Of a stretch of DNA of 64,000 nucleotides, positions 47,404-61,783 are shown piece by piece. The DNA comes from Gluconobacter wancherniae NBRC 103581 (GTDB taxonomy: Bacteria > Pseudomonadota > Alphaproteobacteria > Acetobacterales > Acetobacteraceae). Below the pieces are notes generated by a model. That model was not told the DNA's origin, ran no database searches, and was given only the letters and a program-made list of their open reading frames with translations. The position numbers were made by a program, and so were the translations under genes. Every line of letters begins with the position of its first letter. Positions within the stretch are counted from its first letter, which is position 1. The stretch spans positions 434,001 to 498,000 of the forward strand of contig NZ_BJUZ01000002.1 in the NCBI RefSeq assembly GCF_007988885.1, written 5' to 3'.

Positions 47404-47707
47404 ATTCTGGGTTGTGAGCTTGCGTAGAGGTTTCTGTTCGCAGGTTTAGCTTAAATACGCGATGTACGCTCGTAAAAAGGCAACGCTTCGTGCGTTTCTT
47501 GCTAATGGACTGCGCGCCCTGCAGGAAGGTTATGTTCAGACTGCCTCTTACTTAGGGTCTGTCTGCCGGGACTCTTACCGGAGTTCTGTTTGCCTTCTGC
47601 AAAGGTTTTATCTTGACGCTGACACGCCATCACACCAGCCTTTTTCCTGTCATGCATGCACGCGGGCATGAACGCCGCTTTGCTATGCTGTGTGTGGGAG
47701 CGGTCTG
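47404..47707. other. Intergenic region upstream of xdhA
   Basis: About 300 bases with no convincing gene. A 69-codon open frame starts here at 47462 but is Cys/Arg-rich, has no ribosome site and looks random. The region must contain the xdh promoter; no clear operator or palindrome was recognised. Confidence 0.5.
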
Positions 47708-49168
47708 ATGCGACAGAATGTGCGTTTCTACCTTGGCGCGGAGTATTGTGAGCTCAGCAAAATCTCTCCAACGCTAACGGTGCTTGACTGGCTTCGTGAG
47801 CGTGGGCGTACGGGAACCAAAGAAGGCTGTAACGAGGGGGATTGCGGGGCCTGTACGGTTCTGATCGTTCGTCTGGAAAAGGCACAGCTTGTCTGGAAGG
47901 CTGTAAATGCATGCATCCAGTTTGTCAGTATGCTGGATGGTGCACAGCTTTTCACGATTGAGGATCTTGGTACGCCTGCCGCCCCCCATCCCGTGCAGAC
48001 GGCGATGGTTGAGCAGCACGGTTCCCAGTGCGGGTTTTGTACCCCCGGCTTCGTCATGTCGATGGCGGCCTATCGCAAGACGCCCGATGCCACGATTGAT
48101 GATGCGCGCATTGATGAGGCTCTGGCTGGAAACCTGTGTCGGTGCACGGGATACGCTCCGATTGTACGGGCTATGAAGCAGGCCATGGCGGCCGGAGCAG
48201 ACCGCTTTGATGCAGAAGTCGAGGCGATCACGAAACGCCTGGAGAGCCTTCAGGATAGTGAGACAGTCTGTCTGGCTGGTCCGGGTGGAAAGCTGACGAT
48301 ACCGACAGATTCGAACGCGCTTTCACAGGCTTTCCTGGATGATCCTTCTGCCACGATTGTGGCCGGAGCTACGGATGTGGGTCTTTGGGTCACGAAGGGT
48401 ATGCGTACCCTGCCGCACATTATCTCAATTGGGCGAGTGCCAGACCTTCGCGTGATGGAGCACACATCAGCCGGGTTAAAGATTGGGGCGGCCGTAACCT
48501 ATCAGGAGGCTCGCCCGGCGATAGCAGCGTTGCTGCCAGATGCTGGTGAAATGATCCGTCGTCTTGGTTCGACGCAGGTGCGTAACAGCGCGACAGTCTG
48601 CGGCAACATTGCGAACGGCTCCCCGATCGGGGATGGGCCCCCGATGTTTATCGCGGCAGGTGCGACACTGCATCTACGACGCGGAGAGGTTCGCCGGGCG
48701 CTGCCGCTGGAAGCGTATTTCGTGGCTTATGGAAAGCAGGATCGGCAGCCGGGTGAGTTTGTTGAGGCTGTGACGATACCGGCTCTATCTGCCAGAACGC
48801 AGTTCCGGGCCTATAAGGTTTCAAAGCGTTTTGATCAGGATATTTCCGCCGTTCTCGGAGCTTTTGCATTGGAAATCGACGATGATTCCGTCGTGATTTC
48901 TGCACGTTTTGCATTTGGCGGTATGGCGGCAACCCCTAAGCGGGCAGTTTTGGCTGAAGCCGCCGTTACAGGCCGGGTGTGGGACGAAGATGCGCTCGCA
49001 GCTGCACGCGAAGCAATTGCACAGGATTTCACCCCGCTGACGGATATGCGGGCAAGTGACTGGTATCGACGCACAGTCGCCGCCAATCTGCTGACGCGCC
49101 TTTACGAAGAGACACAGGACGGTGCGCCAGCGCGTCTGGCCAAGACGGGAGGGCCTGTGCATGCTTGA
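47708..49168 (+). CDS. xdhA: Xanthine dehydrogenase small subunit (FeS/FAD)
   Basis: A 486-residue subunit carrying the two [2Fe-2S] clusters and FAD of xanthine dehydrogenase, which oxidises hypoxanthine to xanthine and xanthine to urate. The first cluster Cys are in GCNEGDCGACTV, the second in GSQCGFCTPGF and GNLCRCTGY. The FAD domain shows VAGATDVGLWVTKGM and GNIANGSPIGDGPP. The ATG at this position has GGGAG 7 nt upstream and fits the family better than one 18 nt earlier. Its last codons overlap xdhB, so the two are co-translated. Confidence 0.95.
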   Translation: MRQNVRFYLGAEYCELSKISPTLTVLDWLRERGRTGTKEGCNEGDCGACTVLIVRLEKAQLVWKAVNACIQFVSMLDGAQLFTIEDLGTPAAPHPVQTAMVEQHGSQCGFCTPGFVMSMAAYRKTPDATIDDARIDEALAGNLCRCTGYAPIVRAMKQAMAAGADRFDAEVEAITKRLESLQDSETVCLAGPGGKLTIPTDSNALSQAFLDDPSATIVAGATDVGLWVTKGMRTLPHIISIGRVPDLRVMEHTSAGLKIGAAVTYQEARPAIAALLPDAGEMIRRLGSTQVRNSATVCGNIANGSPIGDGPPMFIAAGATLHLRRGEVRRALPLEAYFVAYGKQDRQPGEFVEAVTIPALSARTQFRAYKVSKRFDQDISAVLGAFALEIDDDSVVISARFAFGGMAATPKRAVLAEAAVTGRVWDEDALAAAREAIAQDFTPLTDMRASDWYRRTVAANLLTRLYEETQDGAPARLAKTGGPVHA

Positions 49169-51491
49169 GAATGTGGCCCAGCCGCGCGTCAAGGGTGCGG
49201 CATCAACCAGCATGAAGCATGAAAGCGCCATTCTGCATGTAACCGGCACCGCGGCCTATATTGACGACATGCCAGAACCCAGAGGCATGCTGCATGTGGT
49301 TCCGGGAATGAGCACCAAGGCGCATGCCCGTATTGTCTCAATGGATCTTGAGGCTGTGCGTGCGGCGCCCGGTGTTGTGAGGGTTCTTACAGCCGAGGAT
49401 GTGATGGGTGAAAACCAGATCAGTCCGGTTCATGCGAATGACGAGCCGCTGCTGGCCACTGATCATGTTTATTACTGGGGACAGCCGATCTTTGCCGTGG
49501 TTGCGGTTTCTCGTGCGGCGGCACGGCATGCCGTGCGTCTGGCGAAGATCGAATATGAAGAGAAGCCTGCAATTCTGAATATTGCACAGGCACGGGAAAA
49601 CGGCGGTGCCGTGGTCTGGCGTCCATTAACCATGGAGCGTGGAGATGTGGAGCGCGGCCTGGCAGAGGCGCCTCGTCGTTTGAAAAACCGGATTACGATG
49701 GGCGGGCAGGAGCATTTCTACCTTGAAGGGCAAAGCGCATTTGCGCAGCCCGGCGAGGGCGGTGAGATGCGGGTGTGGTCTTCGACGCAGCATCCTTCAG
49801 AAACCCAGCATCTCGTAGCGCATGTGCTTGGCAGGCCGCATCATCTCGTAACGACCGAAATCCGGCGTATGGGCGGTGGGTTCGGCGGTAAGGAAACGCA
49901 GGCCAATGCGTGTGCGTGTATTGCAGCCTTGGCTGCGGATCTGACGGGCAGGGCTGCAAAGATGCGCCTGGATCGTGACGACGACATGATGATGACGGGC
50001 AAGCGTCATGATTTTGTCGTTGATTATGATGTGGGCTTTGATGATGACGGCCGCATTCTTGCGGTCGATATGGTTCTTGCGGCGCGTTGTGGATGGTCTG
50101 CAGATCTGTCCGGCCCCGTGACGGATCGTGCATTGTTTCATGCTGACAACGCCTATTTCTACCCAGATGTACGGTTTCGATCACAGGCACTCAAAACCAA
50201 TACACAGTCCAATACCGCCTATCGCGGATTTGGTGGCCCGCAGGGGATTGTGGCAGCAGAGCGCGTGATCGAGGAGATCGCGTTTGCGACGGGCCTTGAT
50301 CCTGTCACGGTGCGGATGCGGAATTTCTACGGGACGGGCACCCGGAATGTGACGCCCTATCACATGACGGTTGAGGACTCGATCAGCGCAGAGATCGTCA
50401 GCAAGCTTGTAGAGCGCTGTGATTACGAGACCCGCAAGGCCGAGATCCGGGAGTTCAACCGCCATAGCAGGCATATCAGGCGTGGTATTGCTCTTACGCC
50501 GGTCAAGTTCGGAATTTCGTTCACGGCCACGCATTACAATCAGGCTGGCGCACTGGTGCATGTCTATACGGATGGTTCCGTGCAGGTGAACCACGGCGGC
50601 ACTGAAATGGGGCAGGGACTGCATACCAAGATGGTGCAGATTGCCATGAGGGAGTTTGGCCTGACCGCAGACCTCGTGCGTATTACGGCCACCACGACAG
50701 GCAAAGTCCCCAATACTTCTGCTACCGCTGCGTCTTCCGGTGCGGACCTGAACGGAATGGCAGTTCTAGATGCCATTCGTCGTATCAAGGAGAGGATCAT
50801 CGCATTCGCAGCCGAGAAATGGGCTGTGGCGGAATGTGACATTCATTTTCTACCCGATGGCGTGCATATCGGCGACGACATTGTTCCTTTCAAGAAGCTG
50901 GTCTGGGATGTGTATTTCGCCCGGATTTCGCTTTCGGCAAATGGCTTCTACAAAACGCCAAAAATTTCGTGGAATGCTGATACTGGTCGGGGTCGTCCTT
51001 TTTTCTACTTTGCCTACGGGGCTGCATGCGCCGAAGTGTCAGTCGATCTGCTGACGGGCGAAAACACCATAGACCGTGTGGATATTCTCCATGACGCCGG
51101 GCAATCCCTGAATCCTGATATTGATATCGGGCAGATTGAGGGCGGGTTTGTGCAGGGCGCGGGTTGGCTCACGATGGAGGAACTTGTCTGGGATGCTGCA
51201 GGGCGTTTGCGGACGCACGCGCCAAGCACCTATAAAATCCCGGCCTGTTCAGACCGTCCGCGCATTTTCAATGTTTCGCTGCTTGAGGATGCCCCGAACC
51301 GTGAAGCGACGATCTTTCGCTCCAAAGCCGTAGGTGAGCCGCCTTTTGTTCATGGAGTGGCGGTTCTGCAGGCTATTTCAGACGCCATTGCGAGCCTTGA
51401 TGAGTATCGGACATGCCCGCGACTGGATGCGCCAGCTACTCCAGAAATGATCCTGCGGACTGCCATGCGGCTGCGTGGAGAGGCGGTCTGA
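49161..51491 (+). CDS. xdhB: Xanthine dehydrogenase large (molybdopterin) subunit
   Basis: A 776-residue catalytic subunit. Molybdenum-cofactor contacts are visible: QEHFYLEGQSAFA, GGGFGGKETQ, AYRGFGGPQG and GGTEMGQGLHTKM. The base-activating Glu lies in KAVGEPPFVHGVAVLQAI near the C-terminus. The frame is open 13 codons upstream, but this ATG overlaps the xdhA stop by 8 nt and has GGGAGG before it. Substrate residues (an Arg in AYRGF and a second Glu) match true xanthine dehydrogenases rather than aldehyde oxidases, as far as can be judged by eye. Confidence 0.95.
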   Translation: MLENVAQPRVKGAASTSMKHESAILHVTGTAAYIDDMPEPRGMLHVVPGMSTKAHARIVSMDLEAVRAAPGVVRVLTAEDVMGENQISPVHANDEPLLATDHVYYWGQPIFAVVAVSRAAARHAVRLAKIEYEEKPAILNIAQARENGGAVVWRPLTMERGDVERGLAEAPRRLKNRITMGGQEHFYLEGQSAFAQPGEGGEMRVWSSTQHPSETQHLVAHVLGRPHHLVTTEIRRMGGGFGGKETQANACACIAALAADLTGRAAKMRLDRDDDMMMTGKRHDFVVDYDVGFDDDGRILAVDMVLAARCGWSADLSGPVTDRALFHADNAYFYPDVRFRSQALKTNTQSNTAYRGFGGPQGIVAAERVIEEIAFATGLDPVTVRMRNFYGTGTRNVTPYHMTVEDSISAEIVSKLVERCDYETRKAEIREFNRHSRHIRRGIALTPVKFGISFTATHYNQAGALVHVYTDGSVQVNHGGTEMGQGLHTKMVQIAMREFGLTADLVRITATTTGKVPNTSATAASSGADLNGMAVLDAIRRIKERIIAFAAEKWAVAECDIHFLPDGVHIGDDIVPFKKLVWDVYFARISLSANGFYKTPKISWNADTGRGRPFFYFAYGAACAEVSVDLLTGENTIDRVDILHDAGQSLNPDIDIGQIEGGFVQGAGWLTMEELVWDAAGRLRTHAPSTYKIPACSDRPRIFNVSLLEDAPNREATIFRSKAVGEPPFVHGVAVLQAISDAIASLDEYRTCPRLDAPATPEMILRTAMRLRGEAV

Positions 51492-52309
51492 GCGCTCTGG
51501 AGATTGTCCGGCGGTGGCGTAGTGCTGGTGAGCCTGTTGCGCGGATCAGTGTTATCCAGGCGCTGGGCTCCACGCCGCGCGAGGAAGGCGCGTTCATGCT
51601 TGTCTCGGCGCACGAGCAGACCGGCACAATTGGTGGTGGCCGATTGGAGTGGGATTGCATGGCAGATGCCCGACTTCTTCTCTCCGAGGGGCTCGACAGG
51701 CGGGAATGTCATATTCCCCTCGGCCCTGCGATCAATCAGTGTTGTGGAGGTGCCGTCACGGTATTGATAGAGCGCATCCATGATCTTGAGGTGCTGGAAG
51801 CTGAGGCGCTGAGGGATCGCGAAGCGCTGCCGACTCTTCTGCTGTTCGGTGCTGGCCATGTCGGGCGTGCGCTGGCCCGCTCTCTCGCATTGTTGCCCCT
51901 CAGGCTCATCTGGATTGATGCACGGGATGAGGAGTTTGGTTCTGTTCCGGTCGATGTCGAGGCGCAGGTCACGGGTGATTGGGAAGCGATGCTCGATGCT
52001 GCGCCTGCGGGCTCTGGGGTTCTGGTCTTGACCCAGAGTCATACTCTGGATGCGCTAATCGTGGGGGCGGCCCTTGTGCGTGATGATTTGCGCTACGTTG
52101 GTATGATTGGCTCGCGGACAAAGCGGCGGCGCTTTGAAAGCGCTTTTCGTCAGATTGATATTCCGCAGATGCAGATTGACAAGCTTGTCTGCCCAATCGG
52201 TGATTTTGGAGTGCGGGACAAGCGGCCTGAGATCATCGCTGCGTTTGTCACGGCAGAAATTGCAACTCGGCTGCTGTCTGAGCCGGGGGGCAGTGCTTCT
52301 CCGGCCTGA
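51488..52309 (+). CDS. xdhC: Xanthine dehydrogenase accessory protein XdhC
   Basis: A 273-residue chaperone that loads sulfurated molybdopterin into XdhB. It has the N-terminal XdhC/CoxI domain (IGGGRLEWDCMADARLL, the QCCGG motif) and the Rossmann C-terminal domain (LLFGAGHVGRALARSLALLP, MIGSRTKRRRF). No ATG, GTG or TTG lies near the expected start; the only near start is CTG at 51488, overlapping the xdhB stop as CTGA, with GGAGAGG 5 nt before it. The alternative is an ATG at 51413, which overlaps xdhB by 79 nt and adds 25 non-conserved residues. The CTG start is preferred with moderate confidence. Confidence 0.85.
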   Translation: MSALEIVRRWRSAGEPVARISVIQALGSTPREEGAFMLVSAHEQTGTIGGGRLEWDCMADARLLLSEGLDRRECHIPLGPAINQCCGGAVTVLIERIHDLEVLEAEALRDREALPTLLLFGAGHVGRALARSLALLPLRLIWIDARDEEFGSVPVDVEAQVTGDWEAMLDAAPAGSGVLVLTQSHTLDALIVGAALVRDDLRYVGMIGSRTKRRRFESAFRQIDIPQMQIDKLVCPIGDFGVRDKRPEIIAAFVTAEIATRLLSEPGGSASPA

Positions 52310-52381
52310 AGGTATGTTTTCCGCGTTATAGGCCAGCGTTCTGAACGGCGCGGCCTTCGTATGTGTGGGGCTGGCGCCTGC

Positions 52382-53155
52382 TTAGGTCCAGGCGTTTTCG
52401 GTGTTCAGGACCAACCCGTTTGAATCAATACGAAAATCTGCCGATCCTTCCGTGACCAGCAGGCGGCTATGCTCGCTCGGGCCTTTACTGACGCAGTGCG
52501 TAATACGCTGGATCTTCATCAGCGTAGCGTCCTTTGGAATCTGAAGCCATTTCGCGGTCTCCTGTCCGGCGTGCATCAGGCCGATCGAAACGTCTGCATA
52601 GTCGATGCTAAATTTCATGACGTCTGTCAGGAGGGTGACGGACGTCATCCTTGCGGCCATTTCCGTGGTGATCATCTCAGAAAACGATTCTGGATAATAA
52701 ACTTCCGTGACAGCGACCGGCTTGTCGTTTGCTGCGTATCCGCGACGGATAAAGATCGCTTTTCCAGACCCTAGAGAAAGTGCATGGCCAACGTCTTCAG
52801 GGGGCGTGCATATCTGGAAATCAAGAAGGGTCAGGCTTGGGCGCAGTCCCTTTTCCGTCAGGATGTCCTGAAACGAGATGATGCTGCTGCGTCTGCCGGG
52901 GCGGTGTAATGGCCCAACGAATGTCCCGCGCCCATGCTGGCGGACGACGATGTCACGCTCGGCAAGGTACGCGAGTGCCTGCCGCACCGTGATCCGGCTT
53001 ACCCCATACATCTGGCAGAAATCTGCCTCTGAAGGCAGCCGCTCCATGAAGAGTGGGTGTGTACCGATCAGCCCCGAAACGTGGCGACTCATCTGCAGGT
53101 AGAGCGGAACTGCATCGTGTGCGTCGAGCGCGAAGGAGAAGTCGGTGGCGGGCAT
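52382..53155 (-). CDS. GntR/HutC-family transcriptional regulator
   Basis: A 257-residue regulator with an N-terminal winged helix (LPSEADFCQMYGVSRITVRQALAYL, RQHGRGTFVGP) and a C-terminal UTRA ligand-binding domain (about 95-240, with RRGYAANDKPVAVTEVYYP). Such repressors respond to small metabolites. It lies between xdhC and the divergent purine-uptake genes, so its ligand is probably a purine, nucleoside or urate-like compound; this is inference. A perfect palindrome between it and the TonB receptor gene is a candidate operator for autoregulation and control of the operon. Confidence 0.9.
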   Translation of the reverse strand: MPATDFSFALDAHDAVPLYLQMSRHVSGLIGTHPLFMERLPSEADFCQMYGVSRITVRQALAYLAERDIVVRQHGRGTFVGPLHRPGRRSSIISFQDILTEKGLRPSLTLLDFQICTPPEDVGHALSLGSGKAIFIRRGYAANDKPVAVTEVYYPESFSEMITTEMAARMTSVTLLTDVMKFSIDYADVSIGLMHAGQETAKWLQIPKDATLMKIQRITHCVSKGPSEHSRLLVTEGSADFRIDSNGLVLNTENAWT

Positions 53156-53224
53156 GACGTGGAAAATCCAGAAAACGTTGCAAAAACAGATTGAGATTCT
53201 AATGAAGAGTTAGTAGGACGTCTT

Positions 53225-53239
53225 ATAACAAGTTGTTAT
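53225..53239. promoter_or_regulatory. Candidate operator of the GntR/HutC regulator
   Basis: ATAACAAGTTGTTAT is a perfect 7-1-7 palindrome in the 172-base gap between the regulator gene and the divergent TonB receptor gene, about 70 nt from the regulator start and 89 nt from the receptor start. Its size and symmetry fit a GntR-type dimer. No second copy was seen upstream of xdhA. Confidence 0.6.
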
Positions 53240-53327
53240 CCCTCATACAGATGCAACGTCGTTCACCACGGCTTCCTACGCAAGGCTGCGGGCAGAGATA
53301 TTGTGTCATAATGTTCGAGAGCTCTTT

Positions 53328-55670
53328 ATGCGCGCTTCATGGTTCCTGAGCACCGCGATTGTCGGCACTCTTTTTTCAACAATGGCTTTCGCAGCCGGAA
53401 CCCCGGAAGGGCGCCGGACACATAACGCGCTACCTTCGCACAAATCTGCTAAAAAAGTCGTCTCACGCAGCGAGACCATCCGCGTTGCCGGAGCCACGAT
53501 CGGCGGTGGTCTGATGACCAAGCAGAACGGTACCCGTGCACGGAGCGAAATTACGCAGGCTTTCATAGCCAAGCAGGCCCCAACGCCAAACGTTTTCCGT
53601 CTCTTGAGTTCTCTGCCAGGGGCGAATGTGGCCAGCGCGGACCCGTTCGGCATGGTGAGCGGCAATATGACGATCCGGGGCATGAACAGCGATCAGATCG
53701 GTTTCACGGTCGAGGGGGCTCCGCTTAACGACATCGGCTCGTACATGGCGTTCCCCACAGAGTGGGTGGATTCCGAAAATCTCAGTCAGGTGACGATGCA
53801 GCAGGGATCGGCCAATCTGGATTCCCCGGTCATCGGTGCCTCTGGTGGCATCGTGACGATGAATCTGATGGACCCGTCAGAGAAGATGGGTGGCACGATT
53901 GCCGGATCCTATGGCTCCTATCATACCCATCGTGAATACGCGCGTCTGGAAACTGGCCTGATCGGCAATACCGGAATGCGGGCATTCGTTGCATGGTCTC
54001 ATCTTGAGGAGCCGCATTTCCGTGGCCGTGGAGACGATCACAAACAGCACGTCGACGCGAAGCTCGTGAAGGACTGGCATAACGGCAGCCGGAGCAGCGT
54101 GTCCGTCAGCTTCGATGATTCGATGAAGGTGGCGTATCTTTCACCGTCGCTCTCCACCTGGCAGCAGTATGGACGCAAAGCGAATTATTCTGAGGATTTC
54201 TCCCCGACTGATACGCGCTACTGGAAGCTTCATCAGAGCCCGTATCGTGTACTGATTCTGAGTGCGCCTCAGCACATCGTGGTCAACCGGCATCTGGGTT
54301 TCGATTTCACGCCATATTTCTACTGGAATGCGGGCACGATCGCGTCTGCATCCCTTATGTCTGAAAACTCGGTCTATTCCGGAACGCAACGCTATAGCAT
54401 TGACCTGAACGGGAACGGCACCACGACCGACAAGGTCATGATGTACACGCCTTTCACCACTCCCTACGTCTACCGGCCCGGGCTGGTCTCGAAGGTTCAT
54501 TATACCATCGGGCATCATGATTTCGTCTTCGGGTACTGGTTCGACTGGTCGCGCCAGCGTATGATCAATCCATACAGCGCTGTGGGTGAAAACGGTGGGC
54601 CTGCCAACGTTTGGGGCTTCCTCAATAACGTCAAGCTTTCGGACGGGACGCGTCTGGCGAGCTATGACAACCTGACCATCACACGCGTCAATTCGCTGTT
54701 TTTTGGCGACACGTTCAATGCCTTCAACAACCGCCTGCGTGTCGAGGCTGGTGTGAAGGAATCCATGGTCAGCCGTATCGGCTACAACTACCTGCCGGGT
54801 TCAAATTACCGGACAGGGATGAACGCAGCCGTTACGACACCAAACCTTGGTGCGCGTTACCGCTTCAATGACCAGCATCAGATTTTTGCGGACGTGGCGA
54901 CGAACTTCCGTACACCCACACTGAATGCACTTTACGACACATACAGTGCGACGACCGGCAAGGCGACCACACTGGCAAACACGCAGCAGAAGACCGAATA
55001 TTCGATCTCGGAAGAACTGGGTTATCGCTATACAGGCGATGTTTTCAGTGGCTCTGTTACGTTCTTCAACTACAATTTTACGAACCGTCAGGTTGCGACG
55101 CAGGTCGTGGTGAACAACGCGCAGATTACCCAGAACATCAACGCTGGTGGTCAGACATCACGTGGCGTGGATATCGAGTTCGGAACGCGCCCCTGGCACA
55201 ATCTGCGGCCTTATGTTTCCGCAGAATATCTTCATGCCACCATCGACAACAACTACAAGGTCGGCAACGATGCTCTGCCAACGGCTGGCAAGATTGCGGT
55301 GCGTAGCCCGGAATTTCAGGCCGCTGTCGGGCTTGATTATGATGACGGGACGTATTTTGCTGGCTTCAACGTGAAATACGTTGGCCGCCAGTTCTCGACG
55401 TTCATGAATGATCAGGCGATGCCGGGTTATGTGAATGCAGACATGAATTTCGGCTATCGTGCTCCGCGCATCCTGCACACAAGACCGGAAATCAGGCTTA
55501 ATCTGATGAATGTTGGCGATAATAAATATCTTTCCGGACCGGCTGGCATCGCTGCGTCTTCCCGTGCCACGAAGGGCGTGTACGGTACGACGATCGCGGC
55601 GCAGGGAACGCCGACCTACTATGTGGCCGGAGGCTTTGCCGCTCTCCTGACCGCTAAAGTAGATTTCTGA
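53328..55670 (+). CDS. TonB-dependent outer-membrane receptor (purine-associated)
   Basis: A 780-residue receptor. Signal peptide ASWFLSTAIVGTLFSTMAFA|A is followed by a TonB-box-like ETIRV, a plug domain (PNVFRLLSSLPGANV, MTIRGMNSDQIGFTVEGAPLND), then a beta barrel ending in the terminal aromatic residue (TAKVDF). These receptors import scarce, bulky ligands with energy from TonB-ExbBD. Most known ones take siderophores, cobalamin or glycans; here the downstream permease, nucleoside hydrolase and adenine deaminase point to a purine nucleoside or related ligand. The frame is open 9 codons earlier, but this ATG gives a normal signal peptide and has GAGAG upstream. The permease gene starts 3 nt after the stop. 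Confidence 0.9.
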   Translation: MRASWFLSTAIVGTLFSTMAFAAGTPEGRRTHNALPSHKSAKKVVSRSETIRVAGATIGGGLMTKQNGTRARSEITQAFIAKQAPTPNVFRLLSSLPGANVASADPFGMVSGNMTIRGMNSDQIGFTVEGAPLNDIGSYMAFPTEWVDSENLSQVTMQQGSANLDSPVIGASGGIVTMNLMDPSEKMGGTIAGSYGSYHTHREYARLETGLIGNTGMRAFVAWSHLEEPHFRGRGDDHKQHVDAKLVKDWHNGSRSSVSVSFDDSMKVAYLSPSLSTWQQYGRKANYSEDFSPTDTRYWKLHQSPYRVLILSAPQHIVVNRHLGFDFTPYFYWNAGTIASASLMSENSVYSGTQRYSIDLNGNGTTTDKVMMYTPFTTPYVYRPGLVSKVHYTIGHHDFVFGYWFDWSRQRMINPYSAVGENGGPANVWGFLNNVKLSDGTRLASYDNLTITRVNSLFFGDTFNAFNNRLRVEAGVKESMVSRIGYNYLPGSNYRTGMNAAVTTPNLGARYRFNDQHQIFADVATNFRTPTLNALYDTYSATTGKATTLANTQQKTEYSISEELGYRYTGDVFSGSVTFFNYNFTNRQVATQVVVNNAQITQNINAGGQTSRGVDIEFGTRPWHNLRPYVSAEYLHATIDNNYKVGNDALPTAGKIAVRSPEFQAAVGLDYDDGTYFAGFNVKYVGRQFSTFMNDQAMPGYVNADMNFGYRAPRILHTRPEIRLNLMNVGDNKYLSGPAGIAASSRATKGVYGTTIAAQGTPTYYVAGGFAALLTAKVDF

Positions 55671-55673
55671 GTC

Positions 55674-57023
55674 ATGCTGGCAGCCCGCCTTGAGCGCTTC
55701 TTCGGCCTGAAGGCCAGCGGCACGACCGTCAGTCGTGAGATCATTGCCGGGCTGACGACATTCGCTGCCATGGTTTACTGCGTTGCCGTCAATCCGATGG
55801 TGATGCAGGAAGCAGGTATGGACCGCGCCAGCGTGCTGAGTGCGACATGCCTGATTGCCATTTTTGGTACGGTGACGATGGGCCTTGTGGCCAACCTGCC
55901 GCTGGGCCTCGCACCGGCAATGGGGTCTAACGTCGTCTTCGCGGTGGTCCTGGTCAAACAGATGGGCATTCCGTGGCCCGCCGCACTCACTCTGGTGTCT
56001 TTGACCGGGGTGTTGTTTCTGCTCATGACGCTGACGAAGCTGCGGGAGCGGCTGGCACATGAAATACCGGACACGCTGAGGATAGGCATTCAGGTGGCGG
56101 TGGGGCTTGTGATCATGTTTATCGGGATGCGGAATTCCGGTTTCATCGTCCGCAGTCCTTCAACACTCATTACAATGGGGCCTATCGGAAGCCCTGCCGT
56201 TATCATGACTCTTGTGGGCTTCATTATTACTCCGGTGCTGGTGGCGCGTCGAATACCGGGGGCGCTGATCCTGTCGATCATTACCCTGACGGTTGTTGGC
56301 CTGTTCCTGCCTGACGGCAAGGGCGGCACGATTACCCACATGCCACAGCATGTGTTTGCCATGCCGATCTGGCCTACGCAGACAGCCTTTCACCTCGATC
56401 CGCTCTATTTGCTCCAGCACATTTTCTATGTGCTTCCGATGCTCTTTTTCTTCCTGTGCACAGAACTGTTCGGGACGCTTGCCAATCTGCTCGGCGTCGT
56501 GACAGCAGCGGGCATGACGTCGAAAGATGGTCGTATTCCCCGCGCGACGGAGGCATTTGCTGCCGATGCCGTCAGTACGATCGTCGGGCCTTTGCTCGGG
56601 ACGGCGGTTGTTACGGTCTATTCGGAATCTGTTACGGGTGTGCAGGCGGGTGGGCGCACCGGGCTGACTGCTCTGGTTATTGCTGCTGGTTTTTGTACGT
56701 CCCTGTTTCTGTGGCCGCTCTTCATGATCATTCCGCCGCAGGCTACGGCACCGTCGTTGTTGATGGTCGGGATGCTGATGTTTCAGGGCGTGCGCAGGCT
56801 GGATCTTTCGGATCTGACGGTCAGTACGCCTGCGGTCCTGACGTTCATCATTGCCCTTATGACCGGAAACCTCATCAACGGCATGGCCATCGGAACATTT
56901 TCCTATGTGGCGATGGCGCTTTTTACAGGGCGTGGCCGCTCTGTCTCTCCCGTTATCTGGGGTTTGTGCTGCATTTTCATCGCGTTTTTCGTGGTGTCTG
57001 CAAACCTGCACAACCATCACTGA
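55674..57023 (+). CDS. NCS2-family purine base permease (AzgA-like)
   Basis: A 449-residue inner-membrane permease of the AzgA branch (adenine, hypoxanthine, guanine, xanthine uptake). The opening REIIAGLTTFAAMVYCVAVNP, LGLAPAMGSNVVFA in helix 3, and the re-entrant motif VTVYSESVTGVQAGGRTGLTALV near helix 10 are the family hallmarks. It imports the free base released in the periplasm, probably with protons. It lies 3 nt after the TonB receptor gene and 14 nt before the nucleoside hydrolase gene, so it is surely co-transcribed with both. Confidence 0.93.
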   Translation: MLAARLERFFGLKASGTTVSREIIAGLTTFAAMVYCVAVNPMVMQEAGMDRASVLSATCLIAIFGTVTMGLVANLPLGLAPAMGSNVVFAVVLVKQMGIPWPAALTLVSLTGVLFLLMTLTKLRERLAHEIPDTLRIGIQVAVGLVIMFIGMRNSGFIVRSPSTLITMGPIGSPAVIMTLVGFIITPVLVARRIPGALILSIITLTVVGLFLPDGKGGTITHMPQHVFAMPIWPTQTAFHLDPLYLLQHIFYVLPMLFFFLCTELFGTLANLLGVVTAAGMTSKDGRIPRATEAFAADAVSTIVGPLLGTAVVTVYSESVTGVQAGGRTGLTALVIAAGFCTSLFLWPLFMIIPPQATAPSLLMVGMLMFQGVRRLDLSDLTVSTPAVLTFIIALMTGNLINGMAIGTFSYVAMALFTGRGRSVSPVIWGLCCIFIAFFVVSANLHNHH

Positions 57024-57037
57024 CAAGAAGTCCCGAT

Positions 57038-58108
57038 ATGATTAGAATTTTCCGCCGTGCTGCCCTTCTGCTCGGTATTGCCCTTACTGGTGTCAGCGGG
57101 GCACATGCCCAGAAAACTCCGGACTACATCATTGCGGATAATGATTTCTTTGGGCCGGGCGGGACCAATATCCAGTCTGTCATTCCGCTTCTGGGAATGC
57201 CCGGTGTCAATCTGCTCGGTTTTACGGTTGTTGTCGGGGATGGATGGGAGAACGCTTCGGTTGCGCATCTTTCGCGCTTTCTGGACCTCGCACATGTCCC
57301 TGTGAGTCTTCCGGTAGTCCCGGGTGCGACACAGCCGCTCGTCAATTCCCGCGCGCGCTTGCTCGCCTGGGAAAAAGCGAATGGGAAAATGCCCTGGAAA
57401 GGCGCCTGGCGCGGAGATGCTCCGGATTTCCAGCCTCCTGTACCGCCCCTCAAAGAAGGTGAGACGCATCGTCAGCCTTCCGCCGAAACGGCGGCGTTGT
57501 TCATGATCCGGCAGGTCCACGCTCATCCCCATCAGGTGACGATCCTTGCAGCCGGGCCACTCACGAATATTGCTCTGGCAACACGGCTCGACCCGGAGTT
57601 TGCCTCGCTCTGCAAGCGTCTTGTGTTCATGGGAGCCATCGTGGATGGCAACATGGGGCAGGTTACCCTGAGCGCGGATTACTACACAGATTTCAACCTG
57701 ATGTTTGATCCGGAATCCGCAAGTATCGCTTTGACTGCGCCGTTCCCGCAGATCATTTCCGTGGGAACAGTTGCCAACCCCATCCGGATGACTGCCGAGA
57801 TCCGTGATCGTGCTGCGCGCTCTAATGGCCCGGTCGGGAATTACCTGCGGACCTACTTCCGCCCGCAGCCGATGTGGGACGAGCTTGCCGCAGCCATTGC
57901 GGTTGATCCGAGCCTTATTACCAGCAAGGTGACGGCTTATATGGATGTGGATCTCTCCCATGGCCCGAACTACGGTTATGCCCATGTCTGGCCGGAGAGC
58001 ACGCGTCCGCATGTGGGCGAGCGTCAGGTCGAAATCGTCACTGGTGTCGATCAGGGCCGCTTCATTGATCTTTTTGTAAATGCCGCAAACCATGTGAGCC
58101 AGCCATGA
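57038..58108 (+). CDS. Exported nucleoside hydrolase-like protein
   Basis: About 356 residues. A signal peptide (RAALLLGIALTGVSGAHA|Q) sends it to the periplasm, unusual for this mostly cytoplasmic family. It should split nucleosides into base and ribose. The calcium/ribose-binding start differs from the classic DTDPGxDD: here it is IIADNDFFGPGGTN (Asp34, Asp36), like the DNDW-type group I recall from fungi. TILAAGPLTNIALA and DFNLMFDPESA retain the rest of the ribose-binding site. The frame is open far upstream inside the permease gene, but this ATG has AGAAG before it and follows the permease stop by 14 nt. Its stop overlaps the adenine deaminase ATG. Confidence 0.87.
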   Translation: MIRIFRRAALLLGIALTGVSGAHAQKTPDYIIADNDFFGPGGTNIQSVIPLLGMPGVNLLGFTVVVGDGWENASVAHLSRFLDLAHVPVSLPVVPGATQPLVNSRARLLAWEKANGKMPWKGAWRGDAPDFQPPVPPLKEGETHRQPSAETAALFMIRQVHAHPHQVTILAAGPLTNIALATRLDPEFASLCKRLVFMGAIVDGNMGQVTLSADYYTDFNLMFDPESASIALTAPFPQIISVGTVANPIRMTAEIRDRAARSNGPVGNYLRTYFRPQPMWDELAAAIAVDPSLITSKVTAYMDVDLSHGPNYGYAHVWPESTRPHVGERQVEIVTGVDQGRFIDLFVNAANHVSQP

Positions 58109-59874
58109 CCAGTATCAGCCTTGATCTGAACGACGCCGCCCTCCGTGACAGGGCTGTTCATGCAGCGTGTGGCCGCGCGCCATTCGATGTGCTGCTGCGT
58201 GGCGGGCGTGTCGCGGACATGGCGACAGGTGAAATCCGCGAGGCCGATATCGGTCTGGTGGGGCCGCTGATTGCGAGCGTTCATGAACGCGCAAGCCGCT
58301 CCGATGCACTTGAAATTGTGGAGCTTGATGGCGCGATTGTCTCTCCGGGCCTGATCGATACTCACCTGCACATCGAAAGCTCGATGATCACACCGCGTTC
58401 CTACGCAGGCGTTGTGGTGCCACAGGGCACGACCACGATCTGCTGGGACCCGCATGAAGTGGGGAATGTCGGTGGGCTTTCAGCCGTGCGCTGGGCGATC
58501 GATGCCGCGCGTGATCTGCCGCTGCGTATTCTCGTCGAGGCACCGTCCTGTGTGCCGTCTGCGCCGGGGCTGGAACGTGCGGGTGCGGTGTTTGACCCGG
58601 CTGCCATGGCTGAAATGCTCTCCTGGCCAGAGGTCATTGGTGTGGCCGAAGTCATGGACATGCGCGGCGTGACGACCCGAAGCCCCAAGATGCGCGGTAT
58701 CGTGCAGGCGGGTCTTGAAAGCGGGAAGCTGGTTTGTGGTCATGCGCGCAGCCTCGAAGGGCAGGGTCTTCAGGGCTTTGTGGCGGCGGGTGTTGAGTCA
58801 GACCACGAACTGACGAACCGTTTCGACATTCTGGAAAAACTGCGCGCAGGCATGACGCTCGAGCTGCGGGTTTCACATGAAATGGTCCTGCCCGAAGCCG
58901 TAGCCGCGTTTGAGGAAATCGGTTGCGTGCCTCAGACGGTGACGTTGTGCACGGATGACATTTTTCCCGATGATCTCGTGGCACGTGGCGGCATCGTACA
59001 CATGCTCCGTTGTCTCGTGAAGCTGGGCATGAACCCGGTTTCGGCCCTGCGATGCGGGACGCTGAATGCTGCCATGCGTCTTGGACGCCGGGATCTGGGA
59101 CTGGTTGCGCCGGGCCGACGGGCTGATCTCGTCGTGTTCAAGGACCTCGCTGATTTTGCAGTGACGGAAGTGTTTACATCCGGTCAGCACGTGGCGTCGA
59201 ACGGCACAATGCGTGTTGAAATGCGTCCTGACACGGGTGTGGCACCGACCCATACGATGAACCTGAAGCCAGTTTCGGCGTCTGACTTCCATATCCCGGC
59301 TCAGGGCACTCATGCCCGGATTTACACGGTGCATACGCCGCGCTCCACGCATTGGGCCGAACGTGATGTTGAGGTTCGTGACGGAAAGATCGTTCTTCCC
59401 AAGGACACTGCTCTGATGACGGTTTTCAATCGTTATGGCGAGACGTCAAAGCCGGGGCAGGGCGTTCTGGAGGGGTGGGGTGAATGGTCTGGCGCGATTG
59501 CCACCACGATCCTTCATGACAGCCACAATCTGGCGGTCTTTGGGTATGATCCGGATGATATGGCTGCTGCGGCCAATGCGTTGATCGCCTGTGGTGGCGG
59601 CATGGCTGTCGCGAAGGATGGGAAAGTCGTGGCGATGCTCGATCTTCCGGTCTGTGGCCTGCTTTCAACCGCAGAGCCCGAAGATGTGGCGGTCCTGTTC
59701 CAGAAAGTCCGCGATGCGGCGGCAGATGTTTCAACATGGGAAGGCCTGCCCGTTATGATCAAGCTGATCATCGGAGCATCGCTTGCCTGTAATCCGGGAC
59801 CTCATGTAACGGATCTGGGCATTACCGATGGTATGACCGGACGCATCGTTACGGATATGGTTATCCCGGCGTGA
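58105..59874 (+). CDS. ade: Adenine deaminase
   Basis: A 589-residue amidohydrolase that converts adenine to hypoxanthine and ammonia in the cytoplasm. The metal-binding motifs are LIDTHLHIESSM (residues 83-94), WDPHEVGNVGG, GHARSLEG and LCTDDIFPDDL; the C-terminal domain with GGGMAVAKDG is complete and the length is typical of Ade. Its product feeds the nearby xanthine dehydrogenase. The ATG overlaps the nucleoside hydrolase stop (ATGA) and its stop overlaps the next gene (GTGA), so translation is coupled. Confidence 0.95.
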   Translation: MTSISLDLNDAALRDRAVHAACGRAPFDVLLRGGRVADMATGEIREADIGLVGPLIASVHERASRSDALEIVELDGAIVSPGLIDTHLHIESSMITPRSYAGVVVPQGTTTICWDPHEVGNVGGLSAVRWAIDAARDLPLRILVEAPSCVPSAPGLERAGAVFDPAAMAEMLSWPEVIGVAEVMDMRGVTTRSPKMRGIVQAGLESGKLVCGHARSLEGQGLQGFVAAGVESDHELTNRFDILEKLRAGMTLELRVSHEMVLPEAVAAFEEIGCVPQTVTLCTDDIFPDDLVARGGIVHMLRCLVKLGMNPVSALRCGTLNAAMRLGRRDLGLVAPGRRADLVVFKDLADFAVTEVFTSGQHVASNGTMRVEMRPDTGVAPTHTMNLKPVSASDFHIPAQGTHARIYTVHTPRSTHWAERDVEVRDGKIVLPKDTALMTVFNRYGETSKPGQGVLEGWGEWSGAIATTILHDSHNLAVFGYDPDDMAAAANALIACGGGMAVAKDGKVVAMLDLPVCGLLSTAEPEDVAVLFQKVRDAAADVSTWEGLPVMIKLIIGASLACNPGPHVTDLGITDGMTGRIVTDMVIPA

Positions 59875-61133
59875 CAGCATTTCCCTATGACCTGAAAGCG
59901 ATGCGACGGTCTTTGCATCGCTTTCCCGAACCTGCGTTTCTTGAGTATCGCACTGCGTCTGTTGTGGCTGCTCGCCTTGTTGAGCTTGGTTTTGACGTTC
60001 GCGTTGGACCGGAGATCATGGCAATGGAAAATGTTCAGGCATTGCCGTCCGCAGAGGCAGTTCTGGCCGCTCAGGAGGCGGCGCGTCTCGCTGGCGCGGA
60101 TGAGAACTGGATGGCCCGGATGCCGGGCGGACAGACGGCGGTCTGTGGGGAAATGCGCCGCGGAGACGGCCCCGTGCTGGCTCTGCGTTTTGACATGGAT
60201 GCGTTGCCGGTTCTGGAAAGTGAGTCTGAGAGCCATCTGCCCGCAGCGGAGCGCTTTTCCTCCGAACGTACAGGCTTCATGCATGCTTGCGGGCATGATG
60301 GTCATACGGCGATTGGGCTTGCAGTGGCGCAGAAACTGTCGCACCCAACTGCGGCTTGGACAGGAACGCTACGTCTTATTTTTCAGCCTGCGGAAGAAGG
60401 CGGGCGAGGGGCCCAGCCGATCGTTTCTGCAGGGTTGCTGGACGATGTAGATACTTTTCTGGCGCTGCATCTCGGGTGTCAGCTTCCGAGCGGCCGTGTT
60501 GCATTGATGGCCGATGGTTTTTTCTGGTCCGAGAAATGGAGTGTCCGCTTTTCCGGTCGTGCTGCGCATGCTGCGATGATGCCGGAGGAAGGGCGAAATG
60601 CGTTGCTCGCCGCTGCGACTGCGGCGCTGGGGGTTCATGCGCTCCCTCGGGATGGGCAGGCTGATACACGTGTGAATGTGGGCGTTTTGTCCGCAGGGCG
60701 TGCGCGCAATGTCATTGCCGATGAAGCGCTTCTGGAACTGGAACTCCGTGCGGCGACCCAAGATGCGTTGAGCCGTCTCGTCGATGCGGCGCGGCGCGTT
60801 TTGCAGGGTGCGGCCTTGATGCAGGGTGCAGAGGTCGAGATTGCGTGTCAGGGGAAGTCGGTGAGCGCGACGTCTGATGTTGCGGTTTGTGAAAGGCTGG
60901 AGCGTGCGGCGCGCGCAGTTGGGCTGGAGGATATTGTCCCGAACTGGCCGATTGGCGGTGGCGATGATGCGACCTTCATGATGCGTCGTGTTCAGGAAAA
61001 GGGTGGCAAGGCAGGTTACTGCCTGATGGGTGCGGATCTGACAGCGCCACACCACGCGGGTAATTTTGACTTCGATGAAGACGCCCTCGAACACGCAGTG
61101 CGCCTTATGACATCGTTCGCGGAACAGGCATGA
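59871..61133 (+). CDS. M20D-family amidohydrolase (AbgA/HipO-like)
   Basis: A 420-residue dinuclear metallohydrolase. The metal site is FMHACGHDGHTAIGLA (residues 136-151), with FQPAEEGGRGAQ supplying the next ligand and catalytic Glu, and HHAGNFDFDE near the end supplying the last. Relatives cleave amide bonds in p-aminobenzoyl-glutamate, hippurate or N-acyl amino acids. The N-terminal insertion with MENVQALPS fits the AbgA-like group. Its role in a purine operon is not clear; it might hydrolyse a conjugated purine or a folate/pterin-like compound. It starts with GTG overlapping the ade stop. Confidence 0.87.
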   Translation: MTAFPYDLKAMRRSLHRFPEPAFLEYRTASVVAARLVELGFDVRVGPEIMAMENVQALPSAEAVLAAQEAARLAGADENWMARMPGGQTAVCGEMRRGDGPVLALRFDMDALPVLESESESHLPAAERFSSERTGFMHACGHDGHTAIGLAVAQKLSHPTAAWTGTLRLIFQPAEEGGRGAQPIVSAGLLDDVDTFLALHLGCQLPSGRVALMADGFFWSEKWSVRFSGRAAHAAMMPEEGRNALLAAATAALGVHALPRDGQADTRVNVGVLSAGRARNVIADEALLELELRAATQDALSRLVDAARRVLQGAALMQGAEVEIACQGKSVSATSDVAVCERLERAARAVGLEDIVPNWPIGGGDDATFMMRRVQEKGGKAGYCLMGADLTAPHHAGNFDFDEDALEHAVRLMTSFAEQA

Positions 61134-61783
61134 CAACGACATTTTGGCAGGAGTTCGCACCTGACGCTGAACTCTCTGCACCATACACGGACCGGTACCG
61201 TGTGAAGGTTGGCGCGCGCTCGCTTGATTTGCCGTTGCGCGCGCTGCCTGACGGAAAGCACGCAGTGTCATCGCTGCTGGTCAACCACGCGTCTTTTGGC
61301 GTGTTGGATGCGATCGTGGAGGATATGTCCCGAATTGCGCTGGAGTTTGCTCCCGAGGTGATTGTGGGCGTTCCCACTCTCGGACTGACACTTGCGCCGG
61401 GTGTTGCGCGGGCTTGTGGTCATGCCCGCTATGTGCCGCTGAGCACATCGCGTAAGTTCTGGTATCGTGACGATGTCTCAGTGCCCCTGACGTCCATCAC
61501 CAGTCCGGGAAATGCGAAATCCTTGTATCTGGACCCGAATTTGTTGCCTCTGCTTCAGGAAAAGCGGGTCCTGTTGGTGGATGATGTTGTCAGCACCGGA
61601 ACGTCACTGGCCGCGACGATAGCACTTCTGGGCATGATGAAAATCGAGCCTGTGGGCGTTGTCTGCGCCATGACGCAGACCAATCGGTGGCGCGATCGGG
61701 TATCCGTGCCAGTGTCGGGGAGTTTTTCTTCTCCGCTATTTGTCAGAGACGCGGGGCAGTGGGTGCCTGATTTTACCTGTTGA
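61130..61783 (+). CDS. Type I phosphoribosyltransferase-like protein
   Basis: A 217-residue protein with the PRPP-binding motif RVLLVDDVVSTGTS (residues 146-159) and a flexible-loop region typical of purine phosphoribosyltransferases; VPTLGLTLAPGVARACG precedes it. It could turn a purine base into its nucleotide using PRPP, completing a salvage route, though the sequence is not close to E. coli Apt, Hpt or Gpt and could be another PRTase-fold protein. The ATG overlaps the preceding stop (ATGA), making it the last gene of the run. It is convergent with the sensor kinase, with only 6 nt between stops. Confidence 0.85.
   Translation: MTTTFWQEFAPDAELSAPYTDRYRVKVGARSLDLPLRALPDGKHAVSSLLVNHASFGVLDAIVEDMSRIALEFAPEVIVGVPTLGLTLAPGVARACGHARYVPLSTSRKFWYRDDVSVPLTSITSPGNAKSLYLDPNLLPLLQEKRVLLVDDVVSTGTSLAATIALLGMMKIEPVGVVCAMTQTNRWRDRVSVPVSGSFSSPLFVRDAGQWVPDFTC

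Follow-up and report, generated by a model that had tools for sequence, protein, structure and literature searches.

Within a 64,000-nucleotide stretch of the genome of Gluconobacter wancherniae NBRC 103581 (contig NZ_BJUZ01000002.1, positions 434,001 to 498,000), referred to here as the window, six genes on the plus strand (window positions 53328 to 61783) probably form an operon for the scavenging of purine nucleosides, or of a purine conjugate, with a dedicated TonB-dependent receptor. The genes encode, in order, the receptor, an AzgA-type permease, an exported nucleoside hydrolase-like protein (NH), an adenine deaminase, an M20-family amidohydrolase and a phosphoribosyltransferase (PRTase). 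An earlier description of this DNA (the original prediction) had placed and ordered the six open reading frames (ORFs) in the same way, and Pfam matches bore out the family given to each; the tight packing that it reported, with gaps of 3 and 14 nt followed by three overlaps of 4 nt, agreed with the coordinates. Absent from it were a divergent GntR/UTRA regulator gene, the neighboring xdhABC genes and the missing metal-binding motif of the NH.

In the proposed pathway, the ligand would pass the outer membrane through the receptor and be cut or bound in the periplasm by the exported NH-like protein, and the AzgA-type permease would bring the freed base into the cell, where adenine deaminase would convert it to hypoxanthine and ammonia. 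Hypoxanthine could then be salvaged by the PRTase or oxidized by xanthine dehydrogenase (XDH). The M20 enzyme would strip an acyl or amino-acid group off part of the ligand pool, and the GntR/UTRA protein would keep the operon repressed until ligand is present. We infer the identity of the ligand, its periplasmic cleavage, the direction of flow, the M20 step and the repression.

Conservation of the cluster in acetic acid bacteria

Among 60 genomes searched, receptor orthologues of 82 to 83% identity were found in 6 of 25 other Gluconobacter genomes, and the next receptors among the matches listed were at most 45% identical. All six relatives carry gntR and the six-gene cluster intact and in unchanged order, with protein identities of 54 to 82%; every receptor of more than 80% identity in the 60 genomes (n = 7) lies inside the cluster. 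A scan of one genome per species (84,980 species) with two short peptide patterns from the NH alignment, which detects close kin only, returned 10 loci, all with the cluster: the six Gluconobacter loci and those of Acetobacter persici, A. tropicalis, A. musti and Gluconacetobacter tumulicola. The operon, proposed originally from gene spacing, is thus beyond chance, its order recurring in six other Gluconobacter genomes and four further acetic acid bacteria. The A. persici receptor and permease (L028; fetched loci are numbered L) are each broken over two or three reading frames, through either mutation or assembly error. A related arrangement occurs in another genus (L106, genome G1005), with the receptor (65% identical), azgA, ade, the NH gene and gntR; the order of ade and the NH gene is swapped relative to the window, and the M20 and PRTase genes were not seen in the fetched L106 stretch. 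A near-mode PLSDB search gave no match, which does not exclude a plasmid origin.

Table 1. Features of the window that bear on the operon
Feature	Coordinates	Strand	Evidence
TonB-dependent outer-membrane receptor, 780 aa	53328..55670	+	PF07715 43.9 bits and PF00593 112.2 bits, both above cut-off
AzgA-type (NCS2) purine base permease, 449 aa	55674..57023	+	PF00860 Xan_ur_permease
Exported nucleoside hydrolase-like protein (NH), 356 aa	57038..58108	+	PF01156 IU_nuc_hydro, 152 bits
Adenine deaminase, 589 aa	58105..59874	+	Amidohydro_1 and Adenine_deam_C
M20-family amidohydrolase, 420 aa	59871..61133	+	Peptidase_M20 and dimer domain; TIGR01891 288 bits (cut-off 154)
Phosphoribosyltransferase (PRTase), 217 aa	61130..61783	+	Pribosyltran; PRK06031 262 bits (cut-off 175)
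Divergent GntR/UTRA regulator	52382..53155	-	GntR and UTRA Pfam matches
Conserved site AGGACGTCTTATAACA, probable GntR operator	53215..53230	+	Alignment of 12 intergenic regions
xdhABC (xanthine dehydrogenase subunits and XdhC)	47690..52309	+	TIGR02963 636 bits, TIGR02965 1305 bits, TIGR02964 279 bits, all above cut-off

Receptors beside nucleoside hydrolase genes

Relatives of the NH were sought in 398 genomes of the phylum, 289 of the class, 274 of a second class, 200 of the family and 116 of a second family, with some overlap among these sets. Every hit listed was retrieved along with its flanking DNA. The comparison took in 63 NH genes scoring above 150 bits, with the window representing its ten-locus group; five of these genes (L064 to L067 and L113) are more distant forms with the ordinary motif. 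ORFs came from a home-made picker that misjudged some high-GC frames (L058 and L122), and genes in unannotated loci were named in part by Pfam and NCBIfam and otherwise by BLAST to proteins of the window, L051, L061 or L062 or presumptively from a reading of ORF starts.

A receptor gene lies within 5 kb of 16 of the 63 NH genes (the window, L051, L059, L061, L062, L063, L105 to L112, L114 and L118). On the NH tree, which holds 63 of 68 rows (the five below 150 bits were left out, and the receptor distance of the window was entered by hand), the linkage label required 5 changes versus 14.4 in shuffles. Receptor-NH linkage is thus clustered on the tree, yet with several apparent origins or losses. 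The NH-linked receptors themselves (15 of the 16 were on the receptor tree) belong to two distant lineages; this tree excludes L008 and L012 (wrong frame) and L118 (long branch), and its remaining long branches call for caution.

The original prediction had named conserved synteny of the receptor with iron or vitamin uptake genes as evidence that would speak against it. Such synteny was mostly not seen, L108 being the exception: genes for purine or pyrimidine metabolism or nucleoside transport occur in the fetched stretch at 10 of the 16 receptor-NH loci, and at the other six no nucleoside-related gene was recognized in that stretch. Besides the window, L059, L061, L106 and L111 hold azgA and/or ade. 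L059 has the order receptor-NH-azgA-ade, with a receptor from a distant lineage, and L061 and L111, both outside the class, share the order NH-PfkB-(218-aa gene)-azgA-receptor. Nucleoside-type ATP-binding cassette (ABC) genes, with or without Bmp, occur at L062, L109 and L110. At L114/L176 an NH gene and two receptor genes follow one another on one strand; XDH lies about 9 kb and HIUase and PuuE lie about 13 to 14 kb from the NH gene, all of these and an adenine deaminase being on the same strand within about 9 to 18 kb. Two further loci (L115 and L116) have an NH-subfamily gene beside xdhABC, the fetched stretch being free of receptor genes; urate oxidase, HIUase and OHCU decarboxylase are further products encoded at L116.

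A pyrimidine counterpart is present in the window genome itself (L051, C1:44000-63000), where dihydropyrimidinase, PreT-like, PreA and NCS1 permease genes accompany a TonB-dependent receptor gene and a convergent NH-subfamily gene. This locus also has, between its preA and permease genes, a short ordinary-NH remnant (L051:6091-6375, plus strand) with a DTDPSIDD motif; it ends early and looks decayed.

As a control, the neighborhoods of 46 azgA genes at 44 loci in the 200 family genomes were compared. A receptor gene lies within 5 kb at five of these loci (the window, L059, L106, L119 and L160) and 6.5 to 7 kb away at two more (L148 and L164). An NH-subfamily gene was present at 3 of the 5 receptor-bearing loci versus 1 of the 39 others (L153, a weak match of 86 bits; one-sided Fisher test, p = 0.003), where the three positives (the window, L059 and L106) had already been found through the NH search and contig ends truncate some of the stretches. 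L160 (G1105:C14:1-12000) contains the end of an xdhB/C-like gene with an AzgA permease gene and a TonB receptor gene; its stretch lacks an NH-subfamily gene.

The 2.78-Mb window genome has 19 matches to the operon receptor at E ≤ 0.001, and the contexts of 7 of the 18 others were viewed. One receptor (L055, C1:1484000-1503000) is encoded beside urocanase, aromatic amino acid (histidine) ammonia-lyase and hutI-like genes, a histidine locus. The nearest paralogue (L050) lies beside an S46 peptidase gene, another (L053) beside an M19 dipeptidase gene, and a third (L056) beside genes for an NCS1 permease and a histidinol dehydrogenase-like protein. Gene context suggests that acetic acid bacteria may possess paralogous receptors each dedicated to a single nutrient.

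Permease, deaminase, amidohydrolase and phosphoribosyltransferase

The label AzgA-like proved right for the permease: its solved relatives at E ≤ 0.01 are three distinct sequences, all of them plant AZG1/AZG2 adenine/guanine permeases (best E, 1e-47). The best solved relative of the deaminase is 3nqb, "Adenine deaminase 2" (679 bits, E 6e-203), and its HxH, GHAR, SDHE and CTDD blocks are invariant in 11 sequences; we take the HxH, GHA, SDHE and TDD blocks to be the metal ligands of adenine deaminase. No signal sequence was seen by eye, and the enzyme is probably cytoplasmic.

The M20 amidohydrolase, probably also cytoplasmic, is closest among solved structures to 3io1, an aminobenzoyl-glutamate utilization protein (AbgA; E 8e-98). 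Its HACGHDGH, EE and HH blocks, presumably the M20 metal blocks, are invariant in 7 sequences. Orthologues (E ≤ 1e-100) occur in 16 of the 200 family genomes. At 4 of 10 fetched M20 loci (L119, L120, L121 and L122) the gene adjoins adenine deaminase or shares a gene group with it, and three of these (L120, L121 and L122) are without any receptor; the tie between the two enzymes is therefore at least partly independent of the receptor, a pattern that suggests a purine conjugate. ABC genes that we take to be of the Opp type are near the M20 gene at four loci (L120, L125, L126 and L128), and the remaining fetched loci have neither adenine deaminase nor Opp-type genes.

In the PRTase, the DDVxSTG block (the phosphoribosyl pyrophosphate loop) is invariant in 10 sequences; 5 of 190 genomes of the class, including the window genome, have a match to the protein. 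A receptor is present at 1 of the 14 fetched M20/PRTase loci (L119, itself a version of the cluster). The neighbors of the PRTase gene at L129 to L132 are mixed (XDH-like subunits, Liv-type ABC and PhyH-like proteins) and indicate no clear function. At L129 to L131 a PRK06031-type PRTase gene stands beside genes for XDH-like subunits and a Liv-type ABC transporter, with a PhyH-like gene at L130 and L131, gene names that are presumptive in part; perhaps these groups represent a route for modified nucleosides.

The GntR/UTRA regulator and xanthine dehydrogenase

The GntR/UTRA gene lies on the opposite strand, 172 nt from the receptor gene, and a gntR match is in the same position at all ten cluster loci and at L106. 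A core, GACGNCNTATAACA, is common to 12 gntR-receptor intergenic regions and belongs to a palindromic sequence whose L106 form is perfect. The 14-base form of this pattern was found in 24 of 132 fetched loci, each being a cluster locus or a copy of one. The window genome has one exact site (53215 to 53230) and one with 2 mismatches; the reversed control pattern has 15 sites. Because the site is confined to cluster loci and has one exact copy in the genome, the GntR/UTRA protein is predicted to be a local regulator that probably controls this operon alone. A regulon shared between xdh and the operon was considered and rejected: no second copy of the conserved site was found in the window, and the sole other site in the genome has 2 mismatches, against a reversed control of 15.

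The xdhABC genes, which lie upstream of the regulator gene, possibly supply the next catabolic step, and their co-regulation with the operon is not supported. None of the 26 Gluconobacter genomes has a PF06181 urate oxidase, the one uricase family screened, and the route may therefore stop at urate or lead into salvage.

Weighing the readings of the operon

Several observations count against a purine nucleoside operon with its own receptor. The best partial matches of the receptor are to heme/hemoglobin receptors, weakly so (61 bits against a cut-off of 317), and AlphaFold modeling on ten receptor orthologues gave a predicted local distance difference test (pLDDT) score of 26. No receptor lies in the fetched stretch of 47 of the 63 NH genes, including the third copy in the window genome (L057). 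The window NH, on a long branch, is nearest to a large receptor-less clade of Acetobacteraceae, a grouping that slightly lowers our confidence. Genes that we take to be FecBCD-like lie about 5 kb from the receptor-NH pair at L108. Most AzgA loci lack a receptor, as does L147 despite an ade product of 70% identity, and the deaminase falls under the TIGR01178 equivalog cut-off (376.4 versus 472.5 bits). XDH is encoded on other contigs in the six Gluconobacter relatives. As a required partner XDH was rejected, since it scored above cut-off in 21 of 26 genomes, comprising 7 of 7 carriers of the cluster and 14 of 19 others (p = 0.18).

A further such point concerns the NH. Its N terminus is signal-like by eye (no predictor was used). 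An AlphaFold model from 11 sequences had a mean pLDDT of 73.6, and the top Foldseek match of the model was the purine nucleoside hydrolase 1mas (E 2.2e-19). Because Pfam score, model and Foldseek agree, the modeled fold assigns the exported protein to the nucleoside hydrolases. It lacks the hallmark DXDXXXDD, having DNDFFGPGGTN instead, and six orthologues have DNDFAGPGGTN with the same spacing. Many other members of the subfamily carry GPGGSD, so that an acid or amide may stand near the active site despite the altered motif. In the C-terminal part, Trp-Asp replaces His-Asp, which is presumably the usual state in nucleoside hydrolases. A review calls DXDXXXDD strictly conserved in known NHs, with one longer fungal form of it (PMC10526354), and HopQ1, an NH-like protein with an altered motif, is reported to have no detectable NH activity (PMC3608555). 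Cleavage by the exported protein is likely, judging from the fold and the family; since DXDXXXDD is absent, the protein may bind rather than cut, or may cut another substrate. Purine uptake, as originally proposed, is supported by gene neighborhoods; the exact ligand and, given the missing motif, an active exported nucleosidase are matters of inference.

A receptor for iron, heme or a vitamin, with the purine genes merely sharing its operon, would fit the partial heme receptor matches and the FecBCD-like genes near L108, which is an outlying pair. Those matches are far under the cut-off, however, and receptors from two distant lineages are repeatedly encoded next to nucleoside genes. The region upstream of the operon has no conspicuous Fur-box-like site (the best has 10 of 19 letters, versus 13 elsewhere in the window), and no Rfam riboswitch was matched in the window. 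We regard this reading as very unlikely. Uptake of a cytokinin, or of some other N6-substituted adenine derivative from plants, is, if anything, harder to credit. The permease is akin to plant AZG1/AZG2, which we take to be cytokinin carriers as well, and these bacteria live on plants and fruit, but the catabolic genes linked at other loci belong to general purine or pyrimidine metabolism, and we know of no M20 enzyme that cuts N6-alkyl groups.

An unlikely though less distant possibility is that the operon actually serves a modified or conjugated form of purine nucleoside, for example, a t6A-type N6-carbamoyl-amino-acid adenosine released when tRNA is broken down. The NH would then remove the ribose, the permease would take up the modified base, and the M20 enzyme would release adenine for the deaminase and the PRTase. 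Every gene would thereby have a step, and the need for a receptor would be explained by a large and scarce ligand. M20 enzymes cut amides, the best solved relative here is AbgA, the metal blocks of the enzyme are intact, and the ties of M20 to adenine deaminase, mostly at receptor-less loci, and to Opp-type transporters agree with such a ligand. Against it, 6 of the 10 fetched M20 loci are without adenine deaminase, the L106 and L059 clusters manage the rest without M20, and a bulky base would have to fit AzgA; we know of no M20 enzyme that cleaves t6A, and one literature search showed none. In its more specific form, TonB-powered scavenging of t6A-type nucleosides from tRNA turnover in which the NH removes the ribose and a deaminase-coupled M20 enzyme strips the amino acid, the idea is a long shot; if true, it would be, to our knowledge, the first catabolic route for t6A-type modified nucleosides.

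Comparison with known systems

Iron chelates, vitamins and glycans are the cargo mostly ascribed to TonB receptors, and nucleosides are usually assumed to cross the outer membrane via porins. That some Proteobacteria invest energy in capturing nucleosides is suggested by the conserved operon, by the two distant receptor lineages beside one exported NH subfamily and by matching loci for purines and pyrimidines within a single genome. Scavenging of purine nucleosides by a dedicated receptor would bear on the nitrogen supply of fruit- and insect-associated acetic acid bacteria, and the loci provide testable receptors and an NH subfamily without the textbook motif.

Elsewhere in the Acetobacteraceae, AzgA likewise adjoins adenine deaminase at 10 of 12 loci whose AzgA is 55 to 58% identical to that of the window; these pairs differ in that the stretch holds neither a receptor nor an NH-subfamily gene and that the deaminase is from another branch (about 30% identical). 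The window NH shares fold and Pfam family with the characterized enzymes 1mas and RihA/B but has DNDFxGPGGTN for DXDXXXDD, Trp-Asp for His-Asp, and export predicted from its signal-like start.

HutC is, we presume, a GntR-type regulator. A TonB-dependent histidine transporter has been predicted in HutC regulons of Caulobacterales and Sphingomonadales (PMC5343134). As in the window, a receptor is there assigned to a small nutrient through catabolic genes under a GntR-type regulator; the nutrient is different, and the assignment is a prediction only.

The locus around BT2804 of Bacteroides thetaiotaomicron is presumably RUS, for ribose and nucleoside use. It encodes a TonB-dependent receptor with a nucleoside hydrolase and a ribokinase (PMC10434189). 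Like the window, it thus pairs receptor and NH; it belongs to the Bacteroidota, has a RagB/SusD partner and is aimed at ribose. The window, from an alphaproteobacterium, has no ribokinase and no SusD (no Pfam match among the nine proteins scanned, 49122 to 61783) and instead encodes a base permease, adenine deaminase, M20 amidohydrolase and PRTase. No proteobacterial TonB receptor for purines or nucleosides was found in the literature searched, which mostly excluded subscription papers. The pairing of receptor and NH is known from Bacteroides, and its proposed proteobacterial purine version would be new.

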